DNA of 36,342 nucleotides, taken from Acidiferrobacterales bacterium (GTDB taxonomy: Bacteria > Pseudomonadota > Gammaproteobacteria > Acidiferrobacterales > Sulfurifustaceae). Below, piece after piece: positions 8,409 to 36,342 of the stretch. The notes under the pieces are model-generated. The model did no database searches, was not told where the DNA came from, and saw only the letters and a list, made by a program, of their open reading frames with translations. The stretch lies in assembly GCA_919902925.1 (NCBI GenBank), contig CAKKRZ010000186.1, positions 1 to 36,342 of the forward strand. Direction: 5' to 3'. Every line of letters starts with the position of its first letter. The first letter of the stretch is position 1. The position numbers and the translations under genes were made by a program.

Positions 8409-8612
8409 TTACTTTCCTCCTCGATAGGAACGGTTGCGGATACTGCCGCGGCTTGACGAAAAACGCGAGCGGGGTCCAGACGCGTTCGCGTCGCGGCTCT
8501 CGGCCGTCAACTCTTCGCGTTGTTCCTCGGTGCCCGGTGCCCAGCCGCGTAAACCGGTCCAGGCGAAGGTCGCCAGCAGCAGCACACCGAAGATCTGATA
8601 GATTCTGAGCAT
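8409..8612 (-). CDS. Small single-helix membrane protein, DUF4178/DUF350 operon
   Basis: A 67-residue protein whose ATG overlaps the stop of the DUF4178 gene (TGATG). One hydrophobic helix (IYQIFGVLLLATFAWTGL, about residues 4-21) is followed by a highly polar tail rich in Arg and Ser (SRFSSSRGSIRNRSYRGG), probably cytoplasmic or membrane-surface bound. Tight spacing on both sides (one-base overlap upstream, one-base gap downstream) makes it a real operon member. It may correspond in position to the DUF4247-type small membrane protein of related clusters, but no sequence relationship is claimed. Confidence 0.8.
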   Translation of the reverse strand: MLRIYQIFGVLLLATFAWTGLRGWAPGTEEQREELTAESRDANASGPRSRFSSSRGSIRNRSYRGGK

Positions 8613-9967
8613 CAGCTGATTTTCTGGCGACGCAGCCAATACAGCACCGGCAGCACGGCGAACGCGATCAGTATATAGAGAAGATAGCTGCCACGCGGAA
8701 CGTCGCGGTGCATGACCAACTGGTAGCGGATATCTGGCACGTCGGCATAGGTCATGACCTCCAGCACATAGTTCCCGGCCGGGATGCTGGAGAAATAGAA
8801 TTCCGGCCTGGGCGTGCCCTCGCTCCACGCCTCCCCGCCGTCGTAACCGTGCCAATGGCCGGTGTCTTCATAGATATGGAAGACCTTGCCGCTGGTCTTG
8901 TTCACCAGCGCCAGCTCAAAACCCATCCACTGGTTGCTGAGGCTGGTCAGCGCCTGCACCTGGACGTTGGAACGCCTTCCGGTCAGTTCGAAAGGCTCGC
9001 TGATCCAGGACGACTGGGTGGTGGCGCCGGTGGTGCGCTGGCCGCTGTCATACACCTTCTTGTTCTGGGAGGCCGCCATGAGCAACAACTGCAGAACGAT
9101 AGCGGCGGCCGCGAAGATCAACGACCAGCGCACAATCTGGCTGCCCGAGGTCGGTTTGTTCAAAAGTAGTGAAGGCGCAACCGGGCCTAACCTTGAGGAA
9201 GGACGAACGAGCGAAGCGAGTAGGGCTACCGTTTCGGCCCGCGCCCCTCGCCTCGATCCCATCGGCGAAGGCGCAGCCGGTGCTGGCGCTGAAGCGCCCG
9301 ACAAGCCGAGAAATCCGGACAGACGCGCGCCGAATCCGGCCGGCGCGGTCAGCTTCCGTCCCGTCGGGGCGCCGATCTCGTCCGCCCGGATCGGGTAGGA
9401 CAGATACCAAGACAACGGCTGACCCTGCGCGGACATTTCGGCCGTAAGGCCGTACTCTTTCCCCTCGTAGCAATCAAACCTCGTTTTGTCGCCGACCTTG
9501 ACCGGCTCCTCGAACTCACCGACGGCGGCAATCACGTCCAACCGGTAAGTGTCATCGAACGTGAATGTCTGTTTGAACAACTCGGCGCTCTGGTCGGTCT
9601 TTTTCACCAGGCGCTCACCGTTGGGCAAATAACGGTTGAGCGTCCATTCACCCCCGGCCTCCTCCAGGCCGACAATTTCGTCACCGCGGCCGATGAGATC
9701 GTAATCGGTGGAGAGATTGCCCTCGCCGTCCCGGTACTGGACGATGCCGCCGATCGTGTAGCGGCGACCCTGGACGGTGATGGTGTCGTGCACGGCAAGC
9801 GCGGCGTCGGTCGGGGCAACTATGGTATCGGCAGAGAGCCGCGTGAGTTTGTCGCCGGTGTGGCGGCTGGAGCGCTGGCAGTGGGGACAGATCAGAAAAC
9901 CGCTGTCCGCGGAGTGCAGATTCAGGCTGCGCTGGCAGTGGGGGCAGGCAAGCGACCGTCCGGCCAT
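8612..9967 (-). CDS. DUF4178 protein with zinc ribbon and membrane anchors
   Basis: A 451-residue protein, first gene of the aminopropyltransferase operon. It starts with a zinc-ribbon-like pair of CPHC motifs (residues 8-11 and 27-30). A DUF4178 domain follows (about 40-190: GRRYTIGGIVQYRDGEG, then a second repeat around 115-190). After a low-complexity linker come a transmembrane helix (about 275-295), a periplasmic beta-rich domain (about 300-420) and a second helix at the C-terminus (YLLYILIAFAVLPVLYWL). The linker (residues 233-242 and flanks) contains repeat copy A. DUF4178 proteins travel with DUF350 and SpeE-like genes; their activity is not known. Confidence 0.85.
   Translation of the reverse strand: MAGRSLACPHCQRSLNLHSADSGFLICPHCQRSSRHTGDKLTRLSADTIVAPTDAALAVHDTITVQGRRYTIGGIVQYRDGEGNLSTDYDLIGRGDEIVGLEEAGGEWTLNRYLPNGERLVKKTDQSAELFKQTFTFDDTYRLDVIAAVGEFEEPVKVGDKTRFDCYEGKEYGLTAEMSAQGQPLSWYLSYPIRADEIGAPTGRKLTAPAGFGARLSGFLGLSGASAPAPAAPSPMGSRRGARAETVALLASLVRPSSRLGPVAPSLLLNKPTSGSQIVRWSLIFAAAAIVLQLLLMAASQNKKVYDSGQRTTGATTQSSWISEPFELTGRRSNVQVQALTSLSNQWMGFELALVNKTSGKVFHIYEDTGHWHGYDGGEAWSEGTPRPEFYFSSIPAGNYVLEVMTYADVPDIRYQLVMHRDVPRGSYLLYILIAFAVLPVLYWLRRQKIS
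9243..9270 (-). repeat. Dispersed palindromic repeat, copy A (partial)
   Basis: On the minus strand this reads CTTCGCCGATGGGATCGAGG and on into CGAGGGGC, matching the left half of the repeat family (copies B-F). The right half, with its GCCAGGGATGGC hairpin, is replaced by unrelated sequence containing an ACTCGCTTCGCTCGT-type palindrome. It lies in the linker of the DUF4178 protein, in frame, as PMGSRRGARA. Confidence 0.7.
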
Positions 9968-10092: not shown

Positions 10093-11655
10093 TCAAAAGC
10101 GCAACAACACGCGCCAGGTCAGACGGGCCTCGCCCCCGGCCGGGACCGTGACTGCCCACTGGGCTGTACCGGCGGCGACCTTCTCGTGGCGGTGGCTGGA
10201 GGCCAGCATCTGCCAGTCGCCCGGCACCGGTTCGCGTACCGTAACGGTCACCGGTTCGTTCTTGGCGTTCGTGAGCACGATCTCATAGGCGCTTTCGTAG
10301 GCGTAGCTGTGCGGTGAAGTGGCCGGGCGGCGCTGGAAATCGGTCTGCTTCTTGCTGGCGGTGACATCGAAGGCATCGCCGAGCTTGAGCCGTACGGTCT
10401 CATTCTTCGGCGTATGGTCGATACGGTCCTCGCCGATGAACTGGGCGTTGCCGGCACGGTCCTTCTTGTACACGCGCACCACGCCCTTCGGCAGCGGCAT
10501 GCCGAGACCGGCGACTTCGCCGATTGGATCGAGGCGAGGGCCGCGCGCCAGGGATGGCGCGCCTGCGGCTTCCCGGTTGTCAAAGTGCACAAACACGCTG
10601 ACCTTCATCTTCTGACCGAGATCACCGTAGCTCGACCGGTAATAATAATCATTGCCGGAAAGCAGAAATTCCTTCTTGACCGGGATGACCGGGGCTGACA
10701 GCAGTGCCACCTGCTTGGTCTGGTTATCGGAAATGGTCGTCAACCGGTTGAGTGTGTACAGGTGGTACTCGAACAGCGATTCCTGCGCCATGGTGGCCGG
10801 CGCCGATGCATCCGCCATCTTCGTGCGTCGTAGCGCGCCGACGGCGCGGAATTCCTCCTTGACCTGGTTCACGTCGCCGGCCACCAGCTGCAGACGTGCA
10901 TTGCGGTAGCCGGTGCCACTGCGATTGGTGAGCGTGACCCAGCCATGAAGCTGCAAGGCATTGTCCTTGTCATTCAGTTCGGCGACGTAATCCGCCTTCC
11001 AGGACAGCCCGCCAGTCAGGTAGGACAGCTCCACCTGCTGCTCGCCCGCACGCCGATTCTCCAGCTGCACCACCAGGGTCGGCCGGTCGCGCAGGTTGTC
11101 CGGCACGCGATCGAAAATGATGCGGCCATGCAGACCGGTCTCGATGCGGTCGCCGATACGCAACACCACGCCATCGGCCGCGCTCAGGACTTCCGCCTGT
11201 TCAATGGTCTCAACGCCGGTCGCCGGGTGGACGCGGGCAATGCGCACCTTTCGCCCGACGAATTTCTCCAGCAGCTTGGCCGGCGTGAGGAGATCGAAAT
11301 CGAAATTTTGTTCAAGCAGTCGAAAAGCTCCAGGGTCCGACAGGCTGCGCAACTGGGCGGTCTCGGGCCGGATGCGCGCGCTGACCTCGCGCATGGCGAT
11401 GTGATTGAGACCGGCATCGAGGCTCAGGCGACGCGTGTCCTTCACCAGCGCCAGGTTTTCGTTGTAGATGGTCACGGCCACCGCCTCCTGATCGTCAACG
11501 GTTGAACGGCGTTCCGTGGTCATTGCCGATGCCGGCAACATGATGGCGGTCAACGTGGCCAACACGGCCGCGCGGCACGTCGCCGATTGGATCGAGGCGA
11601 GGGCCGCGCGCCAGGGATGGCGCGCCTGCGGCTTCGGGTTGCGAAAAAAGTTCAT
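10093..11655 (-). CDS. DUF4139 domain secreted protein carrying two repeat insertions
   Basis: A 520-residue exported protein. The signal-peptide core CRAAVLATLTAIMLPASA lies at about residues 28-45, unusually far from the N-terminus because repeat copy C codes for residues 7-25. The mature part starts with VAVTIYNENLALVKDTR, a typical opening of the DUF4139 family, and continues with beta-rich regions ending in EARLTWRVLLRF. At about residues 362-380 repeat copy B inserts about 18 residues (APSLARGPRLDPIGEVAG) into the family segment that should read NREAAG-LGMPLPKGVVRVYK. DUF4139 function is unknown. GAGG before the ATG serves as ribosome binding site. The gene is divergent from the ArsR-rhodanese gene. 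Confidence 0.88.
   Translation of the reverse strand: MNFFRNPKPQARHPWRAALASIQSATCRAAVLATLTAIMLPASAMTTERRSTVDDQEAVAVTIYNENLALVKDTRRLSLDAGLNHIAMREVSARIRPETAQLRSLSDPGAFRLLEQNFDFDLLTPAKLLEKFVGRKVRIARVHPATGVETIEQAEVLSAADGVVLRIGDRIETGLHGRIIFDRVPDNLRDRPTLVVQLENRRAGEQQVELSYLTGGLSWKADYVAELNDKDNALQLHGWVTLTNRSGTGYRNARLQLVAGDVNQVKEEFRAVGALRRTKMADASAPATMAQESLFEYHLYTLNRLTTISDNQTKQVALLSAPVIPVKKEFLLSGNDYYYRSSYGDLGQKMKVSVFVHFDNREAAGAPSLARGPRLDPIGEVAGLGMPLPKGVVRVYKKDRAGNAQFIGEDRIDHTPKNETVRLKLGDAFDVTASKKQTDFQRRPATSPHSYAYESAYEIVLTNAKNEPVTVTVREPVPGDWQMLASSHRHEKVAAGTAQWAVTVPAGGEARLTWRVLLRF
10517..10572 (+). repeat. Dispersed palindromic repeat, copy B
   Basis: A 56-bp element identical to copy C (11580-11635). 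It contains an imperfect hairpin (CGCC-GAT...ATC-GA-GGCG) followed by a perfect one, GCGCGCCAGGGATGGCGCGC (8-bp stem, GGGA loop). In the DUF4139 gene it is read as EAAGAPSLARGPRLDPIGE and interrupts a conserved family segment by 18 codons. Confidence 0.9.
11580..11635 (+). repeat. Dispersed palindromic repeat, copy C
   Basis: 56 bases identical to copy B, same orientation, same gene, but read in a different frame: KPQARHPWRAALASIQSA. It sits in the n-region of the signal peptide of the DUF4139 protein and adds about 19 residues there. Confidence 0.9.
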
Positions 11656-11800: not shown

Positions 11801-12466
11801 ATGGACAACCGCAAACTGAAGAATCTGCTCTACGAACAGGTGGCCCGCATCGGCAAGGCCGTTTCGAGCCCGATACGGCTGGAGCTGCTGGAAATCCTGT
11901 GCCAGGGCGACAAGAGCGTCGAGCAACTGGCCAGAGCCACCGACATCAGCGTCAAGCTCGCCAGCGCTCATCTGAAGGCACTCAAGGCCGCGCGGCTGGT
12001 CGAGTCACAGCGCCACGGCAAGCACATCCATTATCGGCTGGCCGACCCACAGGTTGCCGACCTGTGGGTGGCGCTGCGCGATTCGGCGGAGGCGCGTCTG
12101 ACGTCGCTGCAAGCGGCGATGAAAGACCTGGTGGCACATCCGGACGAGCTGGCCCCGGTCAGCGGGAAAGCACTGTTGGCACAGGCCAGACGCGGCGAAA
12201 TCGTCGTGATCGATGTCCGCCCCGAATCCGAATACCGGACCGCACACCTGCCGCACGCACGCTCCATCCCGCTCACCGAACTCAGGGCCCGGCTCGGTGA
12301 TTTGCCGAAAGGCAAGCCGGTGGTGGCCTACTGCCGTGGGCCGTTCTGCCTCATGGCCAAGGAGGCGGTGGCGCTCCTCAATAAGAAAGGTTTCAAGGCG
12401 ACGCGATTCGAACTGGGCGTGGCCGAGTGGCGTGCGAGTGGTTTGCCGCTTGCCAGCGACGCCTGA
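11801..12466 (+). CDS. ArsR-family regulator fused to a rhodanese domain
   Basis: A 221-residue protein. Residues 1-95 form a winged helix-turn-helix of the ArsR family (IGKAVSSPIRLELLEILCQGDKSVEQLA, then the recognition helix around SVKLASAHLKALKAARLVE). Residues about 115-215 are a rhodanese domain (VVIDVRPESEYRTAHLPHARSIP) with the persulfide-forming cysteine in AYCRGPFC. Such fusions are thought to sense sulfane sulfur or persulfide rather than arsenic, and no ars gene is nearby. ATG 11801 is chosen; ATG 11792 in the same frame overlaps the operator, and neither has a clear ribosome binding site. It leads the sulfur cluster that extends to 17168. Confidence 0.9.
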   Translation: MDNRKLKNLLYEQVARIGKAVSSPIRLELLEILCQGDKSVEQLARATDISVKLASAHLKALKAARLVESQRHGKHIHYRLADPQVADLWVALRDSAEARLTSLQAAMKDLVAHPDELAPVSGKALLAQARRGEIVVIDVRPESEYRTAHLPHARSIPLTELRARLGDLPKGKPVVAYCRGPFCLMAKEAVALLNKKGFKATRFELGVAEWRASGLPLASDA

Positions 12467-12501
12467 GTATTTTTTCAACGATTCAACACGGAGACAACAA
12501 C

Positions 12502-13272
12502 ATGTTCTTCAGACAACTGGCAGCCAAAGAATCAACACTCTCTTATTTCCTCGGCTGTGGCAGCCTGGGCAAGGGGGTGGCGGTGGATGTAGTCGCCGGT
12601 GACGAGCCGTGGTTCATCGACCAGGCCAAAGAGGCCAAGGTCACGATCACGCATGTCATCGACACCCACGTACACGCCGATCACTACTCCGGTGGGCGCA
12701 AGCTCGCGCAGATGTCAGGCGCGCATTATTGTCTGCATGAAAGCGACGCCGAGGTGGTGAAGTTCCCGTTTCATCCGCTGCATGACAATGACGTAATCGA
12801 GGTCGGTAACGTCATCATCAAGGTGCTGCATACCCCGGGCCACACCATGGACAGTGTCTGCCTGCTGGTGACTGACAAGCGCCGCGGCGAACAGCCGTGG
12901 TTCGTGATCACCGGCGACACGCTGTTTGTCGGCGCCATCGGTCGCCCTGATCTCGCCGGGCGCGAGAAGGCGATGGCGGCCATGCTGTTTGACAGCATCC
13001 ATGCCAAGCTGTTGTCGCTTCCCGACGAAACCGAAATCTTTCCCGGCCACCAGGCCGGCAGCGTGTGCGGCGTCGGCCTGTCCGGCAAGCCGTCATCCAC
13101 CATCGGCTTCGAGAAGCGCTTCAATCTCGGGTTCAAGGTCACCAGCAAGGATGAGTTCGTGAAGCTGATCACGAGCGAGATCCCGCCGCGCCCGGTCGAG
13201 ATGGACCGGATGGTGGCGGCCAACATCGCCGATGGGACCGAGGCGAGGGGCGCAGGCCAGGGGATGGCCTGA
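12502..13272 (+). CDS. MBL-fold persulfide dioxygenase-like enzyme
   Basis: A 256-residue metallo-beta-lactamase-fold protein close to persulfide dioxygenase (ETHE1-like) and related hydrolases. Metal ligands are visible: HVHADH (about residues 57-62), HTPGHTMDS, TGDTLFVG (bridging Asp) and FPGHQAGS. ETHE1-type enzymes oxidise glutathione persulfide to sulfite using one iron. That substrate fits the neighbouring rhodanese, DsrE and SQR-like genes but is inferred. GGAG precedes the ATG. The last 15 residues (ADGTEARGAGQGMA) and the stop codon come from repeat copy D, so the natural C-terminus has been replaced or extended. Confidence 0.88.
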   Translation: MFFRQLAAKESTLSYFLGCGSLGKGVAVDVVAGDEPWFIDQAKEAKVTITHVIDTHVHADHYSGGRKLAQMSGAHYCLHESDAEVVKFPFHPLHDNDVIEVGNVIIKVLHTPGHTMDSVCLLVTDKRRGEQPWFVITGDTLFVGAIGRPDLAGREKAMAAMLFDSIHAKLLSLPDETEIFPGHQAGSVCGVGLSGKPSSTIGFEKRFNLGFKVTSKDEFVKLITSEIPPRPVEMDRMVAANIADGTEARGAGQGMA

Positions 13273-13282
13273 TAGCGCCTTC
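13226..13282 (+). repeat. Dispersed palindromic repeat, copy D
   Basis: Begins TCGCCGATGGGACCGAGG and continues through GCCAGGGGATGGC to a GCGCCTTCGCGG end. It matches the family in both halves. It covers the last 15 codons of the MBL gene and provides its TGA stop, then runs into the gap before the MFS gene. Confidence 0.8.
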
Positions 13283-34260: not shown

Positions 34261-35511
34261 CTAGCCGGGAGAAAGCGGAATGGCGACCACCGCCGCGCCA
34301 GCCTCGAATCCGTCCGACTCGGCCTCGACGCGGATGAAACCGTTGGTGTCCGCCATGGGGCGAAGCTGATGGGAGCCCTGCCCTTTCAGGGCTTCGGCCA
34401 TGAGCCGGCCGTTCTCCGAATACAGGCGCGCGCGCAGGAACTCGGTGCGACCGGCCCGGCGGCGAAAACCATTGCTGGCGGTCGCGGCCAACTCGATCAT
34501 GCCGCTGGACGCATGGTGCCAGGCACACAGCGCCGGCTCGACAAACAGCAGGAAGGTGACCAGGCTCGACACCGGATTGCCGGGCAACGCAAAAAAATGC
34601 GTGCGCTCGCCGAGGCGACCGAAGGCGATCGGCTTGCCGGGCTTGATGCGCACCTTCCAGAAATGGATTTCGCCGATCTCGGCGAACACCTGCTTGACCA
34701 GATCGTGATCGCCAACCGAAACGCCGCCGCTGGTGATGACGAAATCGAAGCCGCCATCGGGCCATCCCTGGCCTGCGGCCCTCGCCTCGGTCCTATCGGC
34801 GAAGCCGCCAGCTTTTTGAAGCAATGCCCGCAGGGCATCGGGCTCGTCGCGCACCGTACCGCCGTCGATCGCCTCGGCGCCGAGCGCGCGAATTTGCAGC
34901 AGCGTGGCGAGCCGGTTGGATTCGTAGATCTGACCGGGCTGCAAGGGCTGGCCGGGGGCGACCAGCTCGTTGCCGGTGGCGACCACCAGCACGCGCGCAC
35001 GACGAAACACATCGATCTTGTCGATACCCGCGGTCGACAGCAACGCAAGATTCCAGGCATTCAGCCGCTGACCCGGACGAAGCAATTCATGGCCGGCAGG
35101 AAAATCCTCGCCGCGGCGACGGATGTGCTGACCTGCCTTGATGCTGCGTGGAAAAACGATTCGCCCATCCTGCTCGTGGATGTCTTCCTGGATCACGACC
35201 GTATCGGCACCGGCCGGCAAGGGCGCGCCCGTGAAGATGCGCATGGTCGTGCCCGGTTTGAGCGTGGCCGGCGCCTGTCCGCAGCTCGATTCGCCGTGCA
35301 ATGGCAGGCGGAAATCGTGCGCCGCCAGATCGGCCAGCTTCACGGCGTAGCCGTCCATGGCCGAGTTGTCGAAGGCCGGATTGTCGACGCGGGCGCGGGG
35401 CGTATCGGCCAGATAGCGCCCGCCGGCATCGACCAGCGGCACGGACTCGCGTTCCGTGCACGCACGAACACCTTGCAGAATGGCGGCACGGGCTTCTTCG
35501 AGGCTCAGCAT
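34261..35511 (-). CDS. moeA: Molybdopterin molybdenumtransferase MoeA with in-frame repeat insertion
   Basis: A 416-residue protein that inserts molybdate into adenylylated molybdopterin. Family segments: LSLEEARAAILQGV (start), VDNPAFDNSAMDGYAVKLADL, IFTGAPLPAGADTVVIQED, VVATGNELVAPGQPLQPGQIYESNR, VITSGGVSVGDHDLVKQVF and FALPGNPVSSLVTFLLFV. ATG 35511 matches the usual start; codons back to 35586 are not needed. Residues about 234-252 (ADRTEARAAGQGWPDGG) are an 18-codon insertion (repeat copy E) between a helix and the strand that starts DFVITSGG, where E. coli MoeA has no such segment. The catalytic regions are otherwise intact. Divergent from moaB. Confidence 0.93.
   Translation of the reverse strand: MLSLEEARAAILQGVRACTERESVPLVDAGGRYLADTPRARVDNPAFDNSAMDGYAVKLADLAAHDFRLPLHGESSCGQAPATLKPGTTMRIFTGAPLPAGADTVVIQEDIHEQDGRIVFPRSIKAGQHIRRRGEDFPAGHELLRPGQRLNAWNLALLSTAGIDKIDVFRRARVLVVATGNELVAPGQPLQPGQIYESNRLATLLQIRALGAEAIDGGTVRDEPDALRALLQKAGGFADRTEARAAGQGWPDGGFDFVITSGGVSVGDHDLVKQVFAEIGEIHFWKVRIKPGKPIAFGRLGERTHFFALPGNPVSSLVTFLLFVEPALCAWHHASSGMIELAATASNGFRRRAGRTEFLRARLYSENGRLMAEALKGQGSHQLRPMADTNGFIRVEAESDGFEAGAAVVAIPLSPG
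34746..34810 (-). repeat. Dispersed palindromic repeat, copy E, with flanking direct repeat
   Basis: On the minus strand: GGCTTCGCCGATAGGACCGA, then GGCGAGGGCCGCAGGCCAGG and GATGGCC. An 11-bp repeat, CGAAGCCGCCA on the plus strand, occurs at 34746-34756 and 34800-34810, 54 bp apart. The element thus adds exactly 18 codons to moeA. Confidence 0.85.
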
Positions 35512-35611
35512 AACGATCACTTCACTGGCGGTTACGGTAACGCATTTCCGGGCAGGCGCCCAGCGGTTATCATGGCATCGTTTCACCCGCCCTTACCGGA
35601 GAAGACGCATC

Positions 35612-36148: not shown

Positions 36149-36342
36149 GAAGAAGAAAAAATCCCGCCCACTGCGTCAGCGCTTCGCCGATGGGAGGCGT
36201 AATAGGCTGGACGTCAGGGACACGTGTCCGAGGGCCGCAGGCCAGGGACGGCCTGGTCGCGGTTTAACGCACCTCAACCGGCGCGGTGAGGCGCACATGG
36301 TCGACGTCGGCGCCAAGGCCGTGACCGTTCGCGAGGCAGTTG
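36129..36342 (+). CDS. moaC: MoaC, partial, with repeat-derived N-terminal part
   Basis: The frame from ATG 36129 runs open to the window end (71 codons). Its last part, LTHLNRRGEAHMVDVGAKAVTVREAV, is the conserved start of MoaC, which forms cyclic pyranopterin monophosphate with MoaA. Before it lie a Lys-rich stretch (RRIKKKKKSRPLRQ) and about 25 residues from repeat copy F (FADGRRNRLDVRDTCPRAAGQG). No other standard start codon precedes the conserved region in this frame, so an N-terminal extension of about 45 residues is predicted. The rest of the gene is beyond the window. Confidence 0.8.
   Translation, partial: MSTRRIKKKKKSRPLRQRFADGRRNRLDVRDTCPRAAGQGRPGRGLTHLNRRGEAHMVDVGAKAVTVREAV
36180..36262 (+). 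repeat. Dispersed palindromic repeat, copy F (long variant)
   Basis: Starts CGCTTCGCCGATGGGAGGCG and ends CGCAGGCCAGGGACGGCC. The middle is expanded by an unrelated segment containing the 12-bp palindrome GGACACGTGTCC. It is read in frame at the start of moaC. Confidence 0.8.

Follow-up and report, generated by a model that had tools for sequence, protein, structure and literature searches.

A dispersed 54-bp two-hairpin repeat, resembling protein-coding palindromic mobile elements, within conserved genes of free-living Gammaproteobacteria

The window analysed here is a stretch of 36,342 nucleotides (contig CAKKRZ010000186.1, positions 1 to 36,342) from the metagenome-assembled genome (MAG) of an Acidiferrobacterales bacterium (GCA_919902925.1, 87.6% complete, hereafter G000). 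It contains a gene for a DUF4139 protein in which one 56-bp sequence occurs twice, as copies B and C, as well as four related copies (Table 1). Copies B and C agree at 56/56 bases and lie 1063 bp apart, while their flanks are unrelated (25-32% identity). As originally predicted, the identical DNA is read in two different frames of one gene, giving AAGAPSLARGPRLDPIGE at copy B and KPQARHPWRAALASIQSA at copy C.

Table 1. Positions in the window of the DUF4139 gene and of the copies of the element.
Feature	Position	Strand	Basis and remarks
DUF4139 gene, 520 aa, host of copies B and C	10093..11655	-	Pfam E=3.7e-12; orthologue lengths
Copy B	10517..10572	+ (antisense to DUF4139 gene)	Inserted 54-bp unit 10519-10572, residues 363-380; canonical codon grid; absent from 10/10 orthologues
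Copy C	11580..11635	+	Identical to B; other frame (phase 0); unit 11582-11635; residues 8-25; n-region of predicted signal peptide
96-bp variant	9172..9268	-	In frame in DUF4178 ORF 8612-9967 (-)
Copy with one extra G	13226..13281	+	3' end of metallo-beta-lactamase-fold ORF 12427-13272; gives its last residues (ending IADGTEARGAGQGMA) and stop codon
moeA copy	34748..34802	-	In frame, canonical grid, sense; within the MoCF_biosynth domain of moeA 34261-35586 (-); G008 and G007 show a clean 18-aa gap
81-bp variant	36184..36265	+	Outside any supported ORF

The net insert is 54 bp, the remaining two of the 56 shared bases being a flanking 'TC'. When the DUF4139 orthologues of the same family and order are aligned, all ten show a clean 18-residue (54-bp) gap at copy B, in several cases also visible at the DNA level, so that the earlier claim that copy B splits a conserved segment by exactly 18 residues is upheld. 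These orthologues are 475-488 aa long, and the 520 residues of the window protein equal 484+18+18. Copy C also appears, on a reading of the gene start, to lie genuinely within the coding sequence: the ATG at 11655 is upstream of copy C and has a Shine-Dalgarno-like AGAGG before it, so that the copy falls after the start codon but ahead of the predicted signal peptide's hydrophobic core, in an n-region that is shorter in relatives. An AlphaFold model of the protein is poor (mean pLDDT 56) and places copy B in a coil between two strands, to which little weight should be given at a segment pLDDT of ~30. A search of a plasmid collection with the DUF4139 gene returned no match.

Copies B and C belong to a genome-wide family, which was missed in the original prediction. 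The core motif of the element has five matches in the window where 0.22 are expected, and a blast-type search of the same MAG matches 49 places at E<=0.01; the correspondence between B and C is therefore not a matter of chance. With a covariance model trained on 70 copies there are ~130 matches below E=1e-4 in G000, ~30 in G007, ~30 in G045, 10 in G004 and 6 in G002, where G007 is of the same family and G045 of the same order; the copy number is a lower bound, since several contigs end in copies and context was read around the matches. Most other relatives have few copies or none, with none detected in G003, G008 and G009 of the same family, and among 369 genomes of the class just one further genome passes E<=1e-8. 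The element is also carried by two contigs labelled as Burkholderiales and Nitrospira MAGs (L092 and L089), by misbinning or transfer. Most copies are outside strongly supported ORFs, and many are intergenic or near gene ends.

The consensus, TCGCCGATGGGATCGAGGCGAGGGCCGCGCGCCAGGGATGGCGCGTTTGCGGCTT, is a unit of 54 bp, or 18 codons, with two hairpins at positions 1-5/17-21 and 24-34/39-53. Across the alignment 95.9% of cells are paired, and 67 cells carry double changes against 16.7 in shuffles (0 of 500 shuffles reach 67); when the hairpin partners are slid against one another the signal collapses (slid controls 1-13). Both loops keep GGA almost without variation, unlike the stems, and the folding energy of single copies is only modestly better than that of shuffles (z about -2). 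Rfam gave no match to the element above chance. Two longer variants are modular in construction: in the 96-bp form the apex of hairpin 2 is swapped for a module 42 nt longer, and in the 81-bp form hairpin 1 is swapped for a GACGT..ACGTC / GGGACACGTGTCC module. The recurrent net lengths of 54, 81 and 96 bp are all multiples of three, and the canonical antisense frame contains no stop in 94 short or 16 long copies, which would explain why so many insertions in genes survive. Openness of all six frames had been considered as a sign of special selection, a reading that we dropped when 47% of shuffles proved equally open. The extra module of 96-bp variants (e.g. 9172-9268) carries CCTACTCGCTTCGCTCGTTCGTCCTG, and a similar string flanks several copies (L005, L160); this module may itself be an independent repeat.

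Exact 54-bp gaps are found at the DNA level in relatives for Mfd, UvrD, ABC-F and DUF4139, and gaps of 18 or 32 residues for many more host proteins. Together with two nested insertions, whose removal restores a known outer element at CCTC/GGTCCC and CCTC/GATCCC (the slash marking the point of insertion), these empty sites indicate that the unit goes in 3' of TC, usually before G. There are no terminal inverted repeats, and any target duplication is at most 2 bp (TC). Tandem copies have a period of exactly 54 bp, and MurD contains three consecutive units amounting to 68 additional residues. Such triple head-to-tail arrays, all in frame within one ORF, occur at L161 (G000:C146:19142-19346, the MurD case) and at L258 (G045:C28:8583-8745, a 1100-aa ORF). 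Elements nested in elements within a coding gene, with the frame kept, occur at L119 (MnmE) and L130 (GlnE). One 1.2-kb region (L009, G000:C181:3276-4503) holds ~ten copies in both orientations, nested pieces included.

The hosts are conserved housekeeping genes, and the insertions fall within conserved domains of essential proteins. Those identified by Pfam, for which some of the short names are our reading of the domains, are MurD, a YgfZ-like protein, a P-type ATPase, Mfd, UvrD, a PD-(D/E)XK nuclease, an alpha/beta hydrolase, GcvP, PrmA, MoeA, a 2OG oxygenase, MnmE, an M23 peptidase, TruD, a RecB-like protein, CoaBC (Dfp), ABC-F, GlnE, PpsA, FtsQ, an RsuA-like protein, Rep and HtpG ORFs. 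Orthologues in G008 have clean gaps in most of the 17 host genes tested. None of the ~20 orthologues in G007, which has its own copies, carries an insert at the same site, so the insertions are lineage-specific; GlnE of G007 has a separate 32-residue copy in the same linker.

Within genes the element is not placed indifferently to frame. Among copies of G000 with a strong coding signal on both sides, 34/39 use the codon grid TTC/GCC/GAT..GGC/TTC on one strand or the other (antisense in 18, sense in 16), as do 18/19 intragenic copies in three other genomes, for a total of 52/58 over the four. It is important to note that TC/G sites in genes of the window themselves fall at a codon boundary in ~60% of instances (60-63% expected from the target alone), which tempers any reading of the grid bias as pure selection. 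The choice of target explains part of the bias and not all of it (52/58 against 0.6 expected, p=5.8e-7, a test in which tandem copies are not independent). The statement that the DNA, and not the peptide, is conserved thus holds in so far as stems covary and copies are divided about evenly between the two strands of their genes, but not as a general indifference to frame: copy B and the great majority of intragenic copies share the canonical grid, copy C is among the few exceptions, and the peptide is therefore under some constraint. That identical DNA yields different peptides is true of the B/C pair and is not typical of the family.

The original suggestion that B and C are recent copies is likewise supported, in that relatives have clean gaps for the insertions and B equals C while mean identity in the family is 78%. 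Four pairs are identical, B/C being one, and all four lie on the same contig. More generally, there is an excess of nearly identical non-tandem pairs within single contigs (11/53 against 86/4368, p=3.5e-9), also when contig C181 is left out (7/41 against 52/3569, p=1.4e-6). A general trend for neighbours to be more alike was considered and rejected: the mean identity of near pairs is not higher, and it is near-identical pairs alone that are locally enriched. Either local copying or conversion is the likely source of near-identical same-contig pairs, and conversion between two family copies is a possible source of the identity of B and C.

We hypothesize, with a probability of about 85%, that B and C are members of a non-autonomous and very small mobile element that spreads as DNA and is tolerated in frame within genes. 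Its mobility is suggested by the comparison of genomes described above; there is good support for spread at the DNA level, with selection acting to retain in-frame insertions that can be tolerated. The mobile unit would amount to 54 bp net (GCCGAT..GGCTTC) and go in immediately 3' of a TC in the host sequence, which is the same as a 52-bp unit that duplicates the TC; its two hairpins are TCGCC..GGCGA and a second, longer stem whose loop is GGGA. Copying of DNA into TC/G sites would often occur near the donor, beside the element itself to give tandems, or within it to give nested copies. Survivors in genes would be those encoding in-frame peptides of 18, 27 or 32 residues, with purifying selection removing others and favouring one grid, and the peptides are probably tolerated rather than used by their hosts. 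Movement may proceed through single-stranded hairpin DNA acted on by a transposase in trans. As to candidates for such a mobiliser, the IS110 transposase domain (DEDD_Tnp_IS110) is absent from the nine genomes searched, and reverse transcriptase (RVT_1) is absent from G000 and G045 and does not track the element, these negatives coming from incomplete MAGs. It is tempting to speculate that the family represents a new class of minimal mobile element shaped by residence within genes, with modules that hold the total length at multiples of three, a grid that can be tolerably read from two strands, and GGA-loop hairpins recognised by a mobiliser that is neither Y1, IS110 nor reverse transcriptase, although we regard this larger claim as doubtful.

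Other explanations can be offered for a short sequence that recurs within genes. Were it a functional protein motif, a tag or linker copied between genes with its DNA kept just as coding sequence, the shared codon grid and the stop-free canonical antisense frame would both be expected; but the two strands are used about equally and encode two unrelated peptides, EAANAPSLARGPRLDPIGE and FADGIEARAARQGWRVCGF, the stems covary, the majority of copies are outside strongly supported ORFs, B and C are one DNA sequence in two frames, and the TC/G target would by itself yield well over half of the copies on the grid. Repetition at the peptide level is accordingly strongly disfavoured, and we consider it very improbable. 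Somewhat less improbable, though still distinctly unlikely, is that mobility is secondary and that the repeat is maintained as a regulatory RNA or as a binding site for a protein, for instance a GGA-loop hairpin recognised by a CsrA-like protein, or plays a structural part in the chromosome. The near-invariance of GGA amid varying stems and the many intergenic or gene-end copies agree with such a role, yet the parity of sense and antisense copies in genes would leave half of the transcripts without GGA loops, G003, G008 and G009 manage without detected copies, Rfam offers no counterpart, and nested and tandem arrays suggest self-spreading. Least probable of all is that B and C arose by intragenic duplication or conversion outside any mobile family, or by faulty assembly, which the original prediction had named as its possible refutation. 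Their identity within a single gene is what such an origin would produce, but their flanks are unrelated, ~130 other copies sit in unique contexts and independent MAGs have the element too, and the protein exceeds typical orthologues by exactly 2x18 aa; assembly error fails as an explanation for dozens of unique contexts in independent assemblies.

A more substantial, but on present evidence unlikely, alternative is that the element is a REP/REPIN family of the GTAG type moved by its own RAYT, a Y1 HUH transposase. REPs tagged with GTAG or CGTC occur inside genes, with hosts including uvr, uvrD/rep, recB and tRNA pseudouridine synthase (Di Nocera et al. 2013, PMC3733652). The 54-bp element is similarly a short, dispersed stem-loop, in some cases intragenic and in frame, and the repair helicases and tRNA-modification enzymes among its hosts (UvrD, Rep, Mfd, a RecB-like protein, TruD and an RsuA-like protein) echo that bias of intragenic REPs (PMC3733652). 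Y1_Tnp genes are also present in the relatives G001, G018, G012, G041 and G045. However, none was found in the element-rich G000, G007, G004 and G002, which are incomplete MAGs, and matches to the element model near Y1_Tnp genes are weak and probably due to chance (E>=0.02). One such match (E=0.02; L195 1442-1496) directly precedes a Y1_Tnp gene in G001, and is probably fortuitous as well. The consensus has no GTAG or CGTC tag and ends without GTAG or CTAC; CGTC occurs solely within the 81- and 96-bp modules, and in place of the single 8-9 bp stem with a 4-5 nt loop of CGTC REPs there are two hairpins. The two-hairpin unit, exact 54-bp tandems, 81- and 96-bp forms and lack of a RAYT in most element-rich genomes all set it apart from REPs.

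A small mobile element remains our preferred reading, and among its closest counterparts are the Rickettsia palindromic elements (RPEs; Ogata et al. 2000, 2002), which are 105-146 or ~150 bp long (PMC2229807, PMC10969869). Like RPEs, the 54-bp element is small palindromic mobile DNA, in frame in many unrelated conserved genes that stay intact, with family-specific insertions and a transposase that is not known; it has the properties of the protein-coding palindromic (RPE-like) functional class, namely in-frame dispersal in open conserved genes, empty sites and conserved hairpins. RPE hosts are obligate intracellular Alphaproteobacteria, whereas the present hosts are groundwater Gammaproteobacteria, and unlike RPEs the element has two separate hairpins and one grid used from both strands, its lengths of 54, 81 and 96 bp lying outside those of the Rickettsia families. 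The enterobacterial repeats ERIC/RU-1, RU-2 and RU-3, MITE-like sequences of 103-168 bp, are likewise small and mobile, have open frames and are translated within genes, RU-1f being read in several frames, but were not found within conserved domains (Delihas 2007, PMC2759123), where the 54-bp element does insert, in essential proteins. Its ends are not mutual inverted repeats and its duplication is no longer than the TC, as opposed to classical MITEs, and the IS110 transposase that IS110-type cargo would call for is missing from the nine genomes searched. IS200/IS605 elements have hairpins near both ends, lack terminal inverted repeats and insert 3' of a short fixed sequence; the resemblance of the 54-bp element to these is in layout only, with no linked Y1 transposase found. 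The element works like RPEs and intragenic REPs, yet lacks the tag, length and RAYT by which the named families are recognized. We conclude that these free-living Gammaproteobacteria carry a real and new family whose kind, that of the protein-coding palindromic mobile elements, is already known but rare; our literature search for a description of the 54-bp element found no paper, which does not prove that there is none.

Rickettsia has been the main known case of in-frame selfish DNA in essential genes, apart from scattered intragenic REPs in other organisms. The present lineage is free-living and has inserts in MurD, FtsQ, CoaBC, MnmE, UvrD, Mfd, MoeA and other proteins simultaneously, and the corresponding sites in relatives are exactly empty. 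Translated copies are predicted to give insert-junction peptides such as FDNREAAGAPSLAR and ASRHEAAGATSLSR, and peptides derived from repeats can pass for conserved protein sequence in annotation. The family is in effect a natural experiment on the acceptance of new segments by proteins, and it brings the way in which such elements move within reach of testing.
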